From the NCBI RefSeq assembly GCF_006540085.1, contig NZ_BJOG01000002.1, positions 124,001 through 188,000 on the forward strand: a DNA stretch of 64,000 nt, given 5' to 3'. The notes under the pieces are model-generated. The model was not told the DNA's origin, made no database searches, and saw nothing but the letters and a program-made list of their open reading frames with translations. Source of the DNA: Microbacterium oxydans (GTDB taxonomy: Bacteria > Actinomycetota > Actinomycetes > Actinomycetales > Microbacteriaceae). Both the position numbers and the translations under genes were made by a program. Positions 28,296 through 34,320 of the stretch are shown piece by piece. The stretch's first letter is position 1. Every line of letters begins with the position of its first letter.

Positions 28296-28808
28296 TCAGC
28301 TCGTCTCGAGGTCGAGCAGGAACTTCTTGCGCTCAGGGTGCGCGCCGTATTGGCCCGCGCTGCCGTCCGACCGCACGACGCGGTGCACCGGGACGATGAT
28401 CGAGAACGGTGTGATGCGACACGCTGTGCCGACGGCGCGCGCGGCGCCGGGGTGTCCGGCGAGGACCGCGACCTCTCCGTAGCTCATCGTCTCGCCCCAC
28501 TCGATGTCGCAGATCGTCCGCAGAGCGGTCAGAGCGAACCCGTCGACGAGTCGCCAGTCGAGGCGGATGTGCTCGTCGAAGCGCACCTGCTCGCCGTCGA
28601 AGTAGTCGGCGAGCAGATGGGCGAGCTCGTCGGCGGCGCCGGGGTCGGGCTCCGGCACGGATCTCAGCTGGCGCGACACGCCTTCGAGCAGCCAGGGCAC
28701 GCGCGGGTCTTCGGATTCGGAGAGATCGAACCGCACGATGCCCTCGTCGGAGAACACCGCGAGAGCATCGCCGAAGGGGGTCGGCGCGAAGTCGTAGCGG
28801 AAGGTCAT
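28296..28808 (-). CDS. Ogt/MGMT-family protein lacking the methyl-accepting cysteine
   Basis: 170 residues, full family length with an N-terminal RNase-H-like domain and a C-terminal helix-turn-helix (SYGEVAVLAGHPGAARAVGTA, including the Arg finger). The active-site PCHRV of alkylguanine-DNA alkyltransferases reads PVHRV here: the codon is GTG, so Cys is replaced by Val. It therefore should not accept alkyl groups. Alkyltransferase-like (ATL) proteins, with PWHRV, bind damaged DNA and recruit nucleotide excision repair; a similar sensor role is inferred. It is divergent from the large helicase-like gene. Confidence 0.85.
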   Translation of the reverse strand: MTFRYDFAPTPFGDALAVFSDEGIVRFDLSESEDPRVPWLLEGVSRQLRSVPEPDPGAADELAHLLADYFDGEQVRFDEHIRLDWRLVDGFALTALRTICDIEWGETMSYGEVAVLAGHPGAARAVGTACRITPFSIIVPVHRVVRSDGSAGQYGAHPERKKFLLDLETS

Positions 28809-28985
28809 GCCCCCATCCTGACCGCTGGACGGGACACCGCACGCCGCTGTTGCCGCTCCGGGTGGAGAACCTCGTCGGCGCGGACGCCGGGCAGGAGAAG
28901 TGGACGGTGCATCGCATCGCGGAAATTCGGCGGAAACCCGCCCGGGATACCCCGCGTCGGCATGTCGCGCGCCTAGGGTGTCATT

Positions 28986-31900
28986 GTGTGGCGACGTGAA
29001 GGAAAGTCTGCGGACGACACAGCGGTGGATCCTGCTGTGTCGATCAGCGACCTGCACGGGTCCACTGCCGGCATCGACATCGCGCACGCAGCGGAGTCGG
29101 AGCGCACGCGTCTGAGAGCGGAGGCCGCGGATCTCGGCGGCCCCTCGCCACTGGTGAGCTTCCGCGACAGCCCCGAGTCGGGTATCGACATCTCCAAGGC
29201 GCACCCCGGCAGCCTGCCGCAGTTCATCACCGGCAAGTCGACGCTGCTCTCGAACCTCTTCCGCGATGAGGTCGGTCTGCGCACAGCGAGACTCGCCGCG
29301 GAGCGCATCACAGCAAAGAACACCGAGCTGCGCACCGTCCGCGGCATCGAGGCCGTGCACCTCGCCGTCGGCGTCGCCCGGTGGCGCATCGGGGGAGCGG
29401 GGTTCGCCGCACCTGTGCTGTTGCGTCCGCTGGCGATCCGCCGCCACCACTCCGACTTCGAGCTGAAGCTGCAGGGCACCTTCGAGGTGAATCCCGAACT
29501 CGTGCGGATCGCCCGCGATCACTTCGGTCTCACGATCGACGCGACAGCTCTCGCAGCCCTCGCCTACGACGGCGGGATCTTCAAGCCGCAGCCGGTGATC
29601 GACAGCCTGCGCGCGATCACGCGATCGATCGACACCTTCTCGGTCGAGCCGCGCCTGGTCGTCTCGACGTTCGCCGACGTGTCCGGGGTGATGTCCCGCG
29701 ACGGCGGCAGTCTCGACCATCAGGTGCTGAACGCCCTCGCCGGACACGTGGGCGACCGCGAGCGCGTGACCGCCCCACGGGCGATCCCGCACCACATCGG
29801 GCCGGACGACCGCGCTCCTGCGTCCGACAATCTCCTCCTCGACGCCGACGCCGAGCAGGAAGCTGTGCTCGCGCGCATCGCCGCGGGGCACTCCCTGACC
29901 GTCGCGACGCTTCCGGGGACCGGCGGCACGCAGACCGTGATCAACGCGCTCGGCGAACTCGTGCGCGGAGGCAAGCGCGTCCTCGTCGTGTCCGCGCGTC
30001 GCTCGACCCTCGACGGCGTCCGCCATCGTCTCGCCGGGATCGGACTGGACAGCCTCGCGGTCTCGCCGGCGAACGTGCGGCGCGATCTGGTCAGGGCCAT
30101 CGGGCGCAACGAGAAGGCCACGGCGCCGAAGGTCGGCGAAGTCGACGATGCCCTCGTGCGCCTGCGCACCGTCCTGCGCGACTACCGTCAGGCGCTCAGC
30201 GCGCCGATCGCCGGGTTGGGCGCCTCGGTCCTCGACGCCACCCGCCAGCTGACGCGCTTGGCGTCGCTCCCTGTTCCACCGTCGACCACCGCGCGTCTCG
30301 GACCCGATGCGCTTCGTCGCCTCGCCGCCGACCGCAGCGAGGCTGCCGAGGCCCTCGCACAGGCCGCCCGTCTCGGCGAATTCCGCTTCGGCCCGAACGA
30401 CTCGCCCTGGTACGGGGTCACCTTCTCCAGCACCGAAGCCGCACGAGCGGCGCACGAGCTCGCCGGGCGACTGCACTCGCAGAGCGTGCCCACCCTGCTC
30501 GAGCGCGGCTACGAGCTGATCGCGCAGACGCACATGCGTCCGTTCGCGACCATCGACGAGCTCGGCGAGTACCTGCGGCTGCTGCAGGGGATCCGCGATT
30601 CGCTCGACCGATTCAGCCCCACGGTCTTCGAACGTCCTCTGGGTGAGCTCATCCAGGCGCACGGTTCGCGCCGCGACGCTCCCGGCCTGTCCGGGGCGAA
30701 CAGGCGGAGGCTCCGTCGGCTCGCCAAGGAGTATGTCCGCCCTGGAGTGCATGTCACCGAGATGCATGAGGCTCTCCTGCGGATCCAGGCGCAGCGCACC
30801 CAATGGCAGCGCTTCGTCGACGCCGGCGTCGCTCCGGAGATCCCGCTCGGTCTCGCCGACGTCCACGCGGCCTGGCAGCGTGTGGAAGCCGAGCTCGCCG
30901 AACTCGACACCGCCCTCGGACGCCGTGAGCCGTTGGCATCGCTGCCCGTGGCCCGGCTCGTTCGCACCCTCGCCGGCCTCGCTGCCAAATCCGACGTCTT
31001 CGAGAACCTGGTCGAGCGCGCCCAGCTGCGTGACCGACTCGCCCTCCTCGGGTTGGAGCCGCTTCTCACCGAGCTCTCCGTCCGCCACGTCTCGGAGTCC
31101 CAGGTGGGGGAGGAGCTCGAGTTCGCCTGGTGGCAGTCCCTCCTCGAGCGCGCCCTGCAGGACAACCGCGCCCTCCTCGGAGCGAACACCGCGGTCGTCG
31201 ATCGGCTCGAGCGCGATTTCCGCCTGGTCGATGAGGCGCATGCCGCTATGGCCGGACCGCTGCTCGCATGGCAGCTGGCCAATCAGTGGCGCATCGCGAT
31301 CGTCGACGAGCCCCAGCAGTCGCAGCACCTGCGTCAGGCGCTGACGCAATCCGCGACGACCACCGCGCAGGTGGTCAGCGCTGCGCCCACCCTTGTCGAC
31401 GTGCTCGCGCCGGCCTGGATCTCCTCGCCGTACCTGGTGCCCGAGATCCCCGACTCGGTCGAGTTCGACACCGTGATCCTCGTCGATGCCGCAGCGATCA
31501 ACCTCGCAGAAGCGGCCCCGGCGATCCGTCGTGCGCGCCAGATCGTCGCGTTCGGCGACCCGGTCACGCAGCGCCCCACCCCGTTCCGCATCGCGGTCGA
31601 TCCGGAGGAGTCGTGGGAGCCCGAGGTGCCCTTCGACGACGTCTCGGCCTTCGAGCGGCTGTCCGAGCTCCTGCCCGTGCTGACCCTCACCCGCAGCTAC
31701 CGGGCGGGTGGCGAGGACCTCGCGGAGCTCATCAACGATGCCTTCTACGGAGGCGAGATCGTCTCCCTTCCCTGGGCGGGCTCGTACCTCGGTCGTGGCA
31801 GTCTGACGGTCGACTACGTCGAGGGCGGTACGGGAACGCCCGATCCGATCTCGGGTGCGGTCGAGAGCCCGGATGCCGAGGTCGCCAGGGTCGTGACCCT

Positions 31901-32705
31901 CGTGGTCGAGCACGCGGTGCACCGCCCGTCGGAATCCCTCATGGTGGTCACCGCGAGCGCCCGCCACGCCGAGCGCGTGCGCGCCGCCGTCACTTCGGCG
32001 TTCGCCGGGCGATCCGATGTCGCGGACTTCGTCGGCCGAGACACGGTCGAACCGTTCGCGGTGCTGACGCTCGAGGAGTCAGTTGCCGAGAGCCGCGATC
32101 GTGTGATCTTCTCGCTCGGCTTCGGCCTCACCAAGCACGGCCGCGTCCTGAGCGACTTCGGCGACCTCTCCACACCGGACGGCGAGCGACTGCTCACGGT
32201 CGGGATGACGCGAGCGCGCCGTTCGATGGTCCTCGTCTCGTCGATCCGTCCCTCCTCGTTCGACGATGGGCGCCTGGAGCATGGGGCGGCGACCTTGATG
32301 TCGATCCTCGGCGGCCTGGCCGCCCGGAGCCGGGATGCGCGGCTGGAGGATCTCGCCGACCCGCTGACCCTGGCGCTTGCCCGCGAACTGCGGCGCCTCG
32401 GCGCCTCGGTGGACGTCGACTACCGCGGACTGCTCCCGCTGGTCGCGCAGCACGGCGGCAAGGCCGTCGTGATCGAGTCGGATCCCGAGACGCGAGGCGA
32501 GTCCCTGCGCGAGTCCCTGCGTCTGCGCCCGCACGTGCTGCGTCGCCTGGGCTGGCACTACGTGCGCGTGCACGCGTTCGACCTCTACAGCGACCCCGTG
32601 ACCGTGGCGACCCGGATCGCCGCGGTGCTCGGCATCTCGGATTCCGCCCCGCGCGCGGAGAACGATACGCAGCCGATCGACACGCTCGACACCCAGAATG
32701 ACTGA
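28986..32705 (+). CDS. Large SF1-helicase-like protein with altered Walker A and B
   Basis: 1239 residues from GTG, leaderless (TAGGGT at 28974-28979). Residues 1-300 resemble the N-terminal region of DUF4011-type helicases. The P-loop reads PGTGGTQT (310-317) in place of PGTGKTQT: the ATP-binding Lys is Gly. Motif II reads VILVDAAAI (D834, A835): the catalytic Glu is Ala. Motif III-like AFGDPVTQ, TRSYRAGGEDL and motif VI-like VGMTRARRSMVLVSS remain. A restriction-endonuclease-like fold may close the protein (HGGKAVVIESDPET). It looks like a catalytically impaired or non-hydrolysing relative. Frame and length are intact, so it is not decaying. Confidence 0.85.
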   Translation: MWRREGKSADDTAVDPAVSISDLHGSTAGIDIAHAAESERTRLRAEAADLGGPSPLVSFRDSPESGIDISKAHPGSLPQFITGKSTLLSNLFRDEVGLRTARLAAERITAKNTELRTVRGIEAVHLAVGVARWRIGGAGFAAPVLLRPLAIRRHHSDFELKLQGTFEVNPELVRIARDHFGLTIDATALAALAYDGGIFKPQPVIDSLRAITRSIDTFSVEPRLVVSTFADVSGVMSRDGGSLDHQVLNALAGHVGDRERVTAPRAIPHHIGPDDRAPASDNLLLDADAEQEAVLARIAAGHSLTVATLPGTGGTQTVINALGELVRGGKRVLVVSARRSTLDGVRHRLAGIGLDSLAVSPANVRRDLVRAIGRNEKATAPKVGEVDDALVRLRTVLRDYRQALSAPIAGLGASVLDATRQLTRLASLPVPPSTTARLGPDALRRLAADRSEAAEALAQAARLGEFRFGPNDSPWYGVTFSSTEAARAAHELAGRLHSQSVPTLLERGYELIAQTHMRPFATIDELGEYLRLLQGIRDSLDRFSPTVFERPLGELIQAHGSRRDAPGLSGANRRRLRRLAKEYVRPGVHVTEMHEALLRIQAQRTQWQRFVDAGVAPEIPLGLADVHAAWQRVEAELAELDTALGRREPLASLPVARLVRTLAGLAAKSDVFENLVERAQLRDRLALLGLEPLLTELSVRHVSESQVGEELEFAWWQSLLERALQDNRALLGANTAVVDRLERDFRLVDEAHAAMAGPLLAWQLANQWRIAIVDEPQQSQHLRQALTQSATTTAQVVSAAPTLVDVLAPAWISSPYLVPEIPDSVEFDTVILVDAAAINLAEAAPAIRRARQIVAFGDPVTQRPTPFRIAVDPEESWEPEVPFDDVSAFERLSELLPVLTLTRSYRAGGEDLAELINDAFYGGEIVSLPWAGSYLGRGSLTVDYVEGGTGTPDPISGAVESPDAEVARVVTLVVEHAVHRPSESLMVVTASARHAERVRAAVTSAFAGRSDVADFVGRDTVEPFAVLTLEESVAESRDRVIFSLGFGLTKHGRVLSDFGDLSTPDGERLLTVGMTRARRSMVLVSSIRPSSFDDGRLEHGAATLMSILGGLAARSRDARLEDLADPLTLALARELRRLGASVDVDYRGLLPLVAQHGGKAVVIESDPETRGESLRESLRLRPHVLRRLGWHYVRVHAFDLYSDPVTVATRIAAVLGISDSAPRAENDTQPIDTLDTQND

Positions 32706-32904
32706 GCACCCGGGGCCCGCGGACCCGCGCCAGCACGTGGAACGCATCGCTGGATCTCGTCGTGCGCGTCTCACTCCGGTGCCGGGGAGCGACCCGGAAC
32801 CGGAATCGGGGCCAGCGGAGACGCCGCCGGCGCGGAACCGGCCGAAGGGTGCCAAGGGGCCGAACGACGACCAGCTGCTCCAGGACGTCCCGCCGCACTA
32901 CTGA
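32698..32904 (+). CDS. Small Pro/Arg-rich protein coupled to the helicase-like gene
   Basis: 68 residues, polar, with no membrane segment. It starts 8 bp inside the helicase-like gene and ends KGPNDDQLLQDVPPHY. I recall similar short actinobacterial proteins ending in a DxxLxxDxPPH(Y/W) motif, but no function is known. Translational coupling suggests a role with the upstream protein. A 17-bp terminator hairpin follows the stop. Confidence 0.65.
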   Translation: MTEHPGPADPRQHVERIAGSRRARLTPVPGSDPEPESGPAETPPARNRPKGAKGPNDDQLLQDVPPHY

Positions 32905-32989: not shown

Positions 32990-33412
32990 TCAGGCTCCGC
33001 GCTGTGCCTTGAGCAGATCGCGGATCTCGACGAGCAGCTCGGACTCGGTCGCCGCGGCCGGCTCCTCCTCCGGCTCTTCCGCGGGCGTGCCCTTGCGGGC
33101 CTCGACATGAGCTTTGAACGTGTTCATCGGCAGCACGAACACGAAGTACACGACGACGGCGACGGCGAGGAAGCTGATGATCGCCGAGATCAGGTCGCCG
33201 ATCGGGAAGGTCACCGTCTCGCCGTAGATGTTCGGAACCTGGATCCCGAACTGTCCGGCCGCGTCCGCCTTGAGGAAGAGCGCGATGAGCGGGTTGATGA
33301 TGCTGTTGACGACCGCCGTGACGATCGCGGTGAACGCCGTGCCGATGACGACCGCGACGGCCAGATCGATGACGTTGCCCCGGAGCAGGAAGTCCTTGAA
33401 ACCTTTGAGCAT
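32990..33412 (-). CDS. mscL: Large-conductance mechanosensitive channel MscL
   Basis: 140 residues from ATG at 33412 (GGGG a few bases upstream); an in-frame TTG at 33424 is less likely. It starts MLKGFKDFLLRGNVIDLAVAV, the conserved N-terminal helix and pore-lining TM1; TM2 spans about 70-95, and the acidic C-terminus ends in a short bundle helix (ESELLVEIRDLLKAQ). It opens on membrane tension to release solutes during hypo-osmotic shock. The zinc-ribbon gene lies 24 bp upstream. Confidence 0.95.
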   Translation of the reverse strand: MLKGFKDFLLRGNVIDLAVAVVIGTAFTAIVTAVVNSIINPLIALFLKADAAGQFGIQVPNIYGETVTFPIGDLISAIISFLAVAVVVYFVFVLPMNTFKAHVEARKGTPAEEPEEEPAAATESELLVEIRDLLKAQRGA

Positions 33413-33436
33413 GGGATCCCCCAACAGATCGATACC

Positions 33437-33709
33437 TCAGGAAGAGGCCGGAGTCGACGCAGCCGCCGGTTTGGCGCTCGTCGTCGATTCCGTCTTCGAT
33501 GATGCCGAACCATCCTTCGATCCACCGGATTTGGCGCGCGAGTCCGTGCGATAGAAACCGGAGCCGTTGAAGGTCACACCGATCGAGCCGTACTGCTTGC
33601 GCAGCGCGCCACCGCACTCGGGGCACACAGTGAGAGCGTCGTCGGCGAAGCTCTGCACGGCGTCGAAGGTGTGACCGCACGCGGTGCAGGCATAGGCGTA
33701 GGTGGGCAT
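33437..33709 (-). CDS. FmdB-type zinc-ribbon protein
   Basis: 90 residues. The FmdB/CxxC_CxxC zinc ribbon MPTYAYACTACGHTFD...CPECGG contains two CxxC pairs (C8/C11 and C29/C32), followed by a Ser/Ala/Thr-rich low-complexity tail. Often annotated as a putative regulator, but no function is proven. It is 14 bp from the 5-FCL gene and 24 bp from mscL in an apparent three-gene operon. Confidence 0.9.
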   Translation of the reverse strand: MPTYAYACTACGHTFDAVQSFADDALTVCPECGGALRKQYGSIGVTFNGSGFYRTDSRAKSGGSKDGSASSKTESTTSAKPAAASTPASS

Positions 33710-33723
33710 GGGGGTCCTTGAGA

Positions 33724-34320
33724 TCAGCGTCGCCGCGGCGACAGGGTGAGGGTCTGCGACGGGGTAACGACGCCGTTCACCGGCTGGTCGTGGACCTCTC
33801 GCGGAAGTTCGTCGAGTACCTCGGAATCATAGATGACCGCGTAGACGGGAGGGCACTTCTCCATCGAGCCGATCGTCTTGTCGAAGTACCCGCGCCCCCA
33901 GCCCATGCGCATGCCGGAACGGTCGACCGCCGCGGCAGGGACGATCATCAGGTCGACGTCGTTCACGGCGATAGGGCCCAGCACCTCGCCCGTGGGCTCC
34001 GGCAGGCCGAAGAGGCCCTCGGCGACCTCGTCATCGTCCGTGGCGACAGCCCAGTCCAGCAGTCCGTCGGCGCGGGTGACGGGGAGGAGCACGCGGATGC
34101 CGCGGCGCACGGCCCTGGTCACGAAGTCACGGGTGCCCGGCTCTGTCGTGGTGGAGAGGAAGCAGGAGATGGATCGGGCGCCCAGTTCGTCGACGAGGGC
34201 ATCGAGGCGTTCGCCGATGGCCGTGGCCGCCGTCTCGCGTTGTGTGTCGGAGAGGAGCTGGCGTCGTTCGCGGAGCTCGGCGCGGAGTGCGCGCTTGGCG
34301 TGTTCGACGTCGTTCGACAT
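33724..34320 (-). CDS. 5-formyltetrahydrofolate cyclo-ligase
   Basis: 198 residues. The ATP/folate-binding motif RMGWGRGYFDKT near residue 140 and N-terminal KRALRAELRERRQLL identify the family. It converts 5-formyl-THF with ATP to 5,10-methenyl-THF, returning folate to the one-carbon pool. It is first gene of the operon with the zinc-ribbon protein and mscL, and divergent from galU. Confidence 0.92.
   Translation of the reverse strand: MSNDVEHAKRALRAELRERRQLLSDTQRETAATAIGERLDALVDELGARSISCFLSTTTEPGTRDFVTRAVRRGIRVLLPVTRADGLLDWAVATDDDEVAEGLFGLPEPTGEVLGPIAVNDVDLMIVPAAAVDRSGMRMGWGRGYFDKTIGSMEKCPPVYAVIYDSEVLDELPREVHDQPVNGVVTPSQTLTLSPRRR

Follow-up and report, generated by a model that had tools for sequence, protein, structure and literature searches.

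Why a bacterium should maintain a giant, uninterrupted helicase-like protein whose motor residues have been replaced is the question raised by one gene in a 64,000-nucleotide stretch of Microbacterium oxydans DNA (contig NZ_BJOG01000002.1, positions 124,001 to 188,000), referred to here, in its whole length, as the window. The gene occupies 28986..32705 on the forward strand as an open frame of 1239 codons with a GTG start, which verifies the frame described in a first-pass annotation made from the letters of the window alone; homologues were found, and the closest named relatives (97–98%) are Microbacterium, on which ground its family is taken to be Microbacteriaceae. To judge from the aligned sequences, the motor was lost more than once among such proteins, although the gene itself was retained. 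The explanation that we favour, as on balance the probable one, is that a vertically inherited core gene encodes a non-hydrolysing pseudo-helicase scaffold that acts together with a small protein ending in PPH[WY].

The replaced residues lie at the centre of the superfamily 1 (SF1) helicase motor. The P-loop reads PGTGGTQT (residues 310–317; 29913..29936, on the forward strand, as are all coordinates within the gene) and was confirmed by alignment to carry Gly 314 in place of Lys, as the first-pass annotation had read it. That annotation was also right that motif II is altered, whereas the change of Glu to Ala that it placed at residue 835 was one residue out of register. The motif reads LVDAAAI (residues 832–838; 31479..31499), and when the FDVVIFDEASQIPP of intact orthologues is aligned, ungapped, to the FDTVILVDAAAINL of the window protein, the Walker B Asp falls on V833, the Glu on D834, and the next Ala on A835, so that the actual changes are Asp to Val and Glu to Asp. 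The Walker A Lys and the Walker B Asp-Glu pair expected of an active SF1 helicase are therefore G314, V833, and D834 in the window protein. Elsewhere in the core, alignment to intact rows identifies IVAFGDPVTQRPTP (residues 853–866; 31542..31583) as a stretch resembling motif III, and the motif VI-like TRARRSMVLVSS noted earlier was found in the protein by alignment at 32208..32243.

These replacements are shared well beyond the strain. The alignment comprises 184 rows from 265 loci, some rows sharing a genome, with L222 (no usable frame) and L106–L185 omitted. Among its 104 Microbacteriaceae rows, position 314 is Gly in 80, Ala in 8, Tyr in 5, Leu in 4, Val in 3, Ile in 2, and Ser in 2, and Lys in none, so that the change in the P-loop is no chance pattern; across all 184 rows the Lys is present in 8, confined to families f5, f18, and f39. 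Position 833 is likewise Asp in 0 of the 104 family rows (Val 62, Ala 21, Leu 18, Ile 3), and 103 of them have Asp at position 834. Conservation of the altered P-loop columns stands at the 85th percentile within the family and at the 76th across the families with dead motors, the P-loop of very decayed rows being possibly misaligned; such conservation of an altered loop suggests that its shape is important.

The gene is, furthermore, nearly universal in the order. Counting any match at E ≤ 0.001—some matches being partial or perhaps belonging to other members of the superfamily (e.g., in G105, G215, and G266)—a homologue was detected in 58 of 58 relatives, in all 149 genomes of the family (76 genera), in 119 of 119 genomes of the order, and in 42 of 148 genomes of the class. 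Reduced genomes keep a match as well (G070, of 927,303 bp, and G084, a contig of 1,760,810 bp). Comparison of the window gene with 16 Microbacterium genes gave ratios of nonsynonymous to synonymous substitution rates (dN/dS) of 0.03–0.33, indicative of purifying selection, which speaks against decay. That a protein of more than 1200 residues lacking the ATPase residues is matched in every genome of the order searched, even below 1 Mb, points to a task independent of ATP hydrolysis.

Live motors persist in two related families, f5 and f18, which contain positional orthologues with intact GKS...DEAS. A homologue was matched in 78 of 79 f18 genomes, of which 55 were read, namely those with the best-scoring loci, those with loci from the earlier set, and 20 spread over genera. 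By a rule based on letters, with GK[ST] and DE required for a live motor and one of the two for a half-lost motor, these 55 rows comprise 34 live, 6 half, and 15 dead motors; L402 counts as live by this rule (GKS, DE) despite a worn-looking motif VI. The half-lost motors (L397, L400, L401, L409, L410, and L412) are suited to following the order of loss.

Two trees were computed, both of them quick LG+G4 trees with no bootstrap and with long rows present. In the 70-row tree, built without the motif columns and containing one gene twice (L304 and L223), every multi-row family except f3 forms a clade, and a single dead clade of 54 rows of the order stands beside f5/f18, in which 7 of 10 rows are live, and f35/f25, whose 4 rows are dead. 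The live and dead labels require at least four changes, two of them forced by the starred branches; the figure may be three, because the outgroup row L105, which ends at the P-loop together with its locus, had been labelled dead. On the 68-row tree, live versus not-live motors require at least seven changes, five of them forced, and 8–11 losses are obtained over all 68 rows when half rows are counted as lost, the root is taken as live, and no regain is assumed. It is this series of losses, together with the coexistence of live, half, and dead rows, that leads us to conclude from the sequences that the motor was lost repeatedly and the gene retained.

A second active site seems to have met the same fate. 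The C-terminal part of the protein (residues 1120–1215; 32343..32630) is a restriction endonuclease (REase)-like domain of Vsr type, with a weak Pfam match to MTES_1575 at residues 1157–1213, and the catalytic acids of this domain are assigned here from its fold. The window protein has Pro 1151 at the site of the "ID" Asp and retains E1164 and D1166, and thus lacks the full set of residues expected of a Vsr-type nuclease. All 8 live rows have the "ID" Asp, whereas the 61 dead rows have Pro in 27, Ala in 10, and Asp in 8 at this site; the Asp of the E.D motif is kept in 59 of the 61 dead rows, with gaps in the other two. A His beside the "ID" Asp is rare, occurring in 1 of the 8 live rows, and was not used as a criterion. 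The nuclease site has thus probably been lost as well as the motor. Within f5/f18, each of the 36 live rows still has the "ID" Asp, as do 5 of the 6 half rows and 10 of the 15 dead ones, counts that suggest that the motor was lost first and the nuclease later.

The giant gene does not stand alone. A gene for a 68-residue protein ending in GPNDDQLLQDVPPHY (32698..32904, forward strand) overlaps it by 8 bp, and this coupling, which the first-pass annotation had pointed out, is conserved far beyond the genus. In a rule-based scan of 141 loci, a separate small open reading frame (ORF) ending in PPH[WYF] was found in 117, and in 9 the giant protein itself terminated in such a motif, always as PPHW; 15 loci had neither, and the tail, separate or fused, is therefore present in 126. 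The commonest overlaps with the giant gene are 8 bp (34/117) and 4 bp (25/117), overlaps and lengths being approximate because start codons of the small ORFs were picked by rule. Fused and separate states require at least seven changes over 48 rows. A plain motif test, which detected the tail in 128 of the 141 loci as against none in antisense, 1 of 139 upstream, and none in shuffled controls, ruled out the 68-residue ORF as a product of chance. The 17 aligned tails, which had been picked by PPHW, have WG and PPHW in common, and the pattern D..PPHY-stop occurs once in the genome of the window, the search there having covered this form alone. Neither Pfam, searched with the small protein plus four relatives, nor NCBIfam, searched with it plus three, gave a match.

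A profile of the 17 aligned tails was run against the 148 genomes of the class: 121 gave a match at E ≤ 1, and 76 of these reached E < 0.001, as compared with 42 of 148 for the giant gene. Twenty stretches selected from the tail-profile matches (L347–L366) showed no giant gene in the stretch, with MscL and/or FmdB nearby in 14; the small proteins there end in DD.D.GWGE...PPH[WH] and are often convergent with mscL/fmdB. Since the tail is wider than the giant gene and is seen apart from it, the small protein looks, from these distributions, to be the older partner, in front of which the giant gene was later placed. When 13 genomes were re-checked with the profile (those of 12 of the 15 tail-less loci, plus G386, in which a tail had been seen earlier), 11 gave a match, three of them weakly (G053, 0.029; G037, 0.135; G331, 0.437).

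The pair also has a characteristic chromosomal position. Downstream in the window, all on the reverse strand, lie genes for MscL (32990..33424; Pfam MscL, 2.2e-36), for a zinc-ribbon protein of FmdB type (33437..33709; Pfam Zn_ribbon_8, 1.3e-17), and for 5-formyltetrahydrofolate cyclo-ligase (5-FCL; 33724..34320; Pfam 5-FTHF_cyc-lig, 5.2e-36). Of 60 wide loci, 52 contain one or more of these landmark genes (MscL in 37, FmdB in 42, and 5-FCL in 35), which lie 3′ of the giant gene in the rows listed. The 52 include the loci of all but one of the eight live genes of the 70-row tree (L307, L308, L313, L315, L316, L317, and L318). Among 47 new f18 loci, MscL is in the stretch in 35 and the tail in 39; the 12 dead rows among them have MscL in 11 and the tail in 11, and the six half rows have MscL in 3 and the tail in 4. 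In L295, L324, and L267, the giant and small genes are kept together though the landmark was not found.

The origin of the protein is indicated by its intact relatives. Pfam detects in the window protein weak traces of DUF4011, AAA_12, and MTES_1575, in that order and all under the gathering score, the DUF4011 trace (residues 107–172) falling within an N-terminal region of residues 41–172 (29106..29501). The intact orthologues L073, L074, and L085 pass the Pfam models DUF4011, AAA_11, AAA_12, and MTES_1575, L190 passes all except DUF4011, and L101, an intact relative located away from the landmark, passes the same four. The nearest NCBIfam model is ProA (1.4e-82, 278 bits against a curated cut-off of 1500), followed by Hhe (2.4e-41, 141.3 bits against a cut-off of 2000), and L073 and L074 likewise fall under both cut-offs; PADLOC PDC-S37 matches the window protein at 7.2e-85. 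Descent from a DUF4011–SF1 helicase–Vsr nuclease enzyme of the Hhe/ProA/PDC-S37 kind is part of the favoured explanation and shares the slightly better than even confidence that we place in it. The fuller history, in which a defence-type helicase-nuclease was domesticated in an ancestor of the order, joined in an operon to a pre-existing, class-wide small protein with a C-terminal PPH[WYH] docking motif, and then deprived of ATPase and nuclease residues in repeated, independent events that left the gene in place, is offered more tentatively. Gao and colleagues reportedly had a part in naming Hhe.

An AlphaFold2 (AF2) model of residues 30–1226, made from 58 sequences, reached a predicted local distance difference test score (pLDDT) of 70.1 and a predicted template modelling score (pTM) of 0.44, the C-terminal part being barely tested. 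A sequence search of solved structures yielded no match up to E 1. The model aligns best with SF1B helicases of Upf1-like fold, with VIA Z of 21.2 for Ighmbp2, 21.0 for Dna2, and 20.1 for Upf1, the top rows being nearly tied.

Several other explanations have to be weighed against a scaffold. The main rival is that the protein still serves in antiphage defence, its altered motor being a sensor or decoy through which infection sets off another response. The nearest models are indeed those of defence proteins (ProA, Hhe, and PDC-S37, with the values given above), but their NCBIfam scores lie far under the curated cut-offs, and the gene is near-universal in the order, sits mostly at one locus beside housekeeping genes, and is kept by reduced genomes, whereas defence islands are patchy in distribution; we therefore regard a defence role as unlikely. 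A housekeeping role in RNA metabolism or with RNA polymerase, comparable to that of HelD or Upf1 and not concerned with DNA, would be in keeping with the Upf1-like RNA/DNA helicases that are predicted structural neighbours of the model and with the HelD chains among the Foldseek rows (at a low probability of 0.28–0.51). By sequence, however, the protein is related to those of DUF4011–helicase–Vsr architecture, whose REase domain is of DNase type, which makes this explanation less probable still.

Just as improbable is a motor that still works by another route, with substitute residues for the Lys and Glu. The high conservation of the altered P-loop within the family and the near-invariance of D834 would suit it, but no single substitute recurs, position 314 being filled by any of seven residues within the family and by others outside it, and the Asp at 833 is absent from every family row. 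Decay, whether as a pseudogene or as a strain-specific loss, could account for the lost residues and for Pfam matches under gathering scores; it was rejected, and is barely credible, in view of the matches in 149 of 149 family genomes, the absence of the P-loop Lys from all 104 family rows, and the low dN/dS. The claim of the first-pass annotation that the gene is not decaying fits these values, and the intact motifs in close relatives that it had named as grounds for abandoning its view were not seen within the family (P-loop Lys in 0 of 104 rows), intact forms being confined to other families.

The favoured explanation, that of a non-hydrolysing scaffold working with the PPH[WY] protein, is consistent with the sequence evidence, as was the earlier proposal of a non-hydrolysing scaffold or sensor. 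An ancestor shared by most of the order would have lost the ATPase residues, and members of one related family would have done so on several further occasions; within the main dead clade, a nuclease Asp would have gone too in the majority of lineages, with purifying selection persisting throughout. Presumably devoid of ATPase and nuclease activity, the SF1 body would clamp or sense DNA or RNA structure, perhaps still binding nucleic acid, and the flexible PPH[WY] arm, as a separate small protein or a fused tail, would dock a client.

Some observations weigh against this scaffold model. The tail occurs class-wide without the giant gene and so does not depend on it, and the profile search found no tail in G070 (L271, 0.93 Mb) or G231 (L300, 0.8 Mb), both of which keep the giant gene; three of the 13 re-checked genomes gave weak matches. 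Eight of the 60 wide loci lack the landmark, and the live gene L319 (f39) lies away from it. In addition, the AF2 model is of middling quality in both pLDDT and pTM, and the window protein may have residual ability to bind ATP.

On its other side, the giant gene is flanked by a divergent Ogt-like gene (28296–28808, reverse strand), which reads VPVHR at what we take from the family to be the place of the active-site Cys, in agreement with the earlier description of an Ogt homologue without its catalytic Cys. The same annotation had grouped three "dead" or accessory proteins here, a grouping that does not hold: the Ogt-like gene is present in 72 of 80 Microbacterium loci, with Val (60) or Ala (12) and never Cys at the site, is missing from 8 of the 80 (including M. 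halophytorum, M. suaedae, M. nanhaiense, and M. sorbitolivorans), and was found in none of 60 wide loci outside Microbacterium. It was therefore rejected as a member of the system, the link being a genus-level association at most. With an MGMT DNA-binding domain (Pfam, 6.8e-25) and its Cys replaced, the neighbour resembles the alkyltransferase-like (ATL) proteins, and differs from them in having Val or Ala at the Cys site, with Trp, the residue typical of ATLs, not seen. From its sequence, it looks to be an ATL-type protein of Microbacterium that stands outside the giant/small pair. An antisense open frame (28296–31967, reverse strand; 1223 residues) spans much of the giant gene as well as the Ogt-like gene and is read as a high-GC shadow frame.

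In a literature search, which left most subscription journals outside its reach, no title or abstract opening returned named the giant gene or the small protein, PDC-S37 yielded no paper, and the text of PMC9519451 does not mention Hhe, DUF4011, or Vsr. Should the domestication history outlined above be right, the pair would form a RecC-like pseudo-enzyme system, hitherto undescribed and central to the DNA or RNA biology of actinobacteria, whose live, half-dead, and dead stages can still be read in one family. With its live, half-lost, and lost motors, f18 offers a natural experiment in the change from helicase to scaffold, and the PPH[WY] protein a handle for finding the client.

Among known systems, RecC in the RecBCD complex and the helicase-like portion of AddB offer an analogy, in that an SF1-type body whose motor no longer functions is used there as a scaffold, as it may be in the window protein (abstracts of PMC7644769 and PMC4824097); the differences are that no sequence relation was found, no test aimed at one having been made, that no partner motor has been identified for the window protein, and that AddAB (4ceh) appears as a weak Foldseek row for its model. 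The SF1B Upf1-like helicases share the predicted fold of the motor part, at 12–17% identity in those rows, and Ighmbp2, Dna2, and Upf1 are active ATPases, whereas the ATPase residues of the window protein are altered. MTES_1575 itself is a separate giant protein from which the REase domain takes its name (excerpt of PMC3710099), and a DUF4011 gene forms a core flank of a defence hotspot in Pseudomonas aeruginosa, a possible parallel (excerpt of PMC10250203). The antiphage proteins Hhe, ProA, and PDC-S37 are the top profile matches of the window protein and have the domain order of its intact orthologues. The window protein differs from them in lying far under the NCBIfam cut-offs, in having 1239 residues against a profile length of 1550–1911, in lacking the ATPase residues, and in being encoded at a core locus instead of a patchy island.

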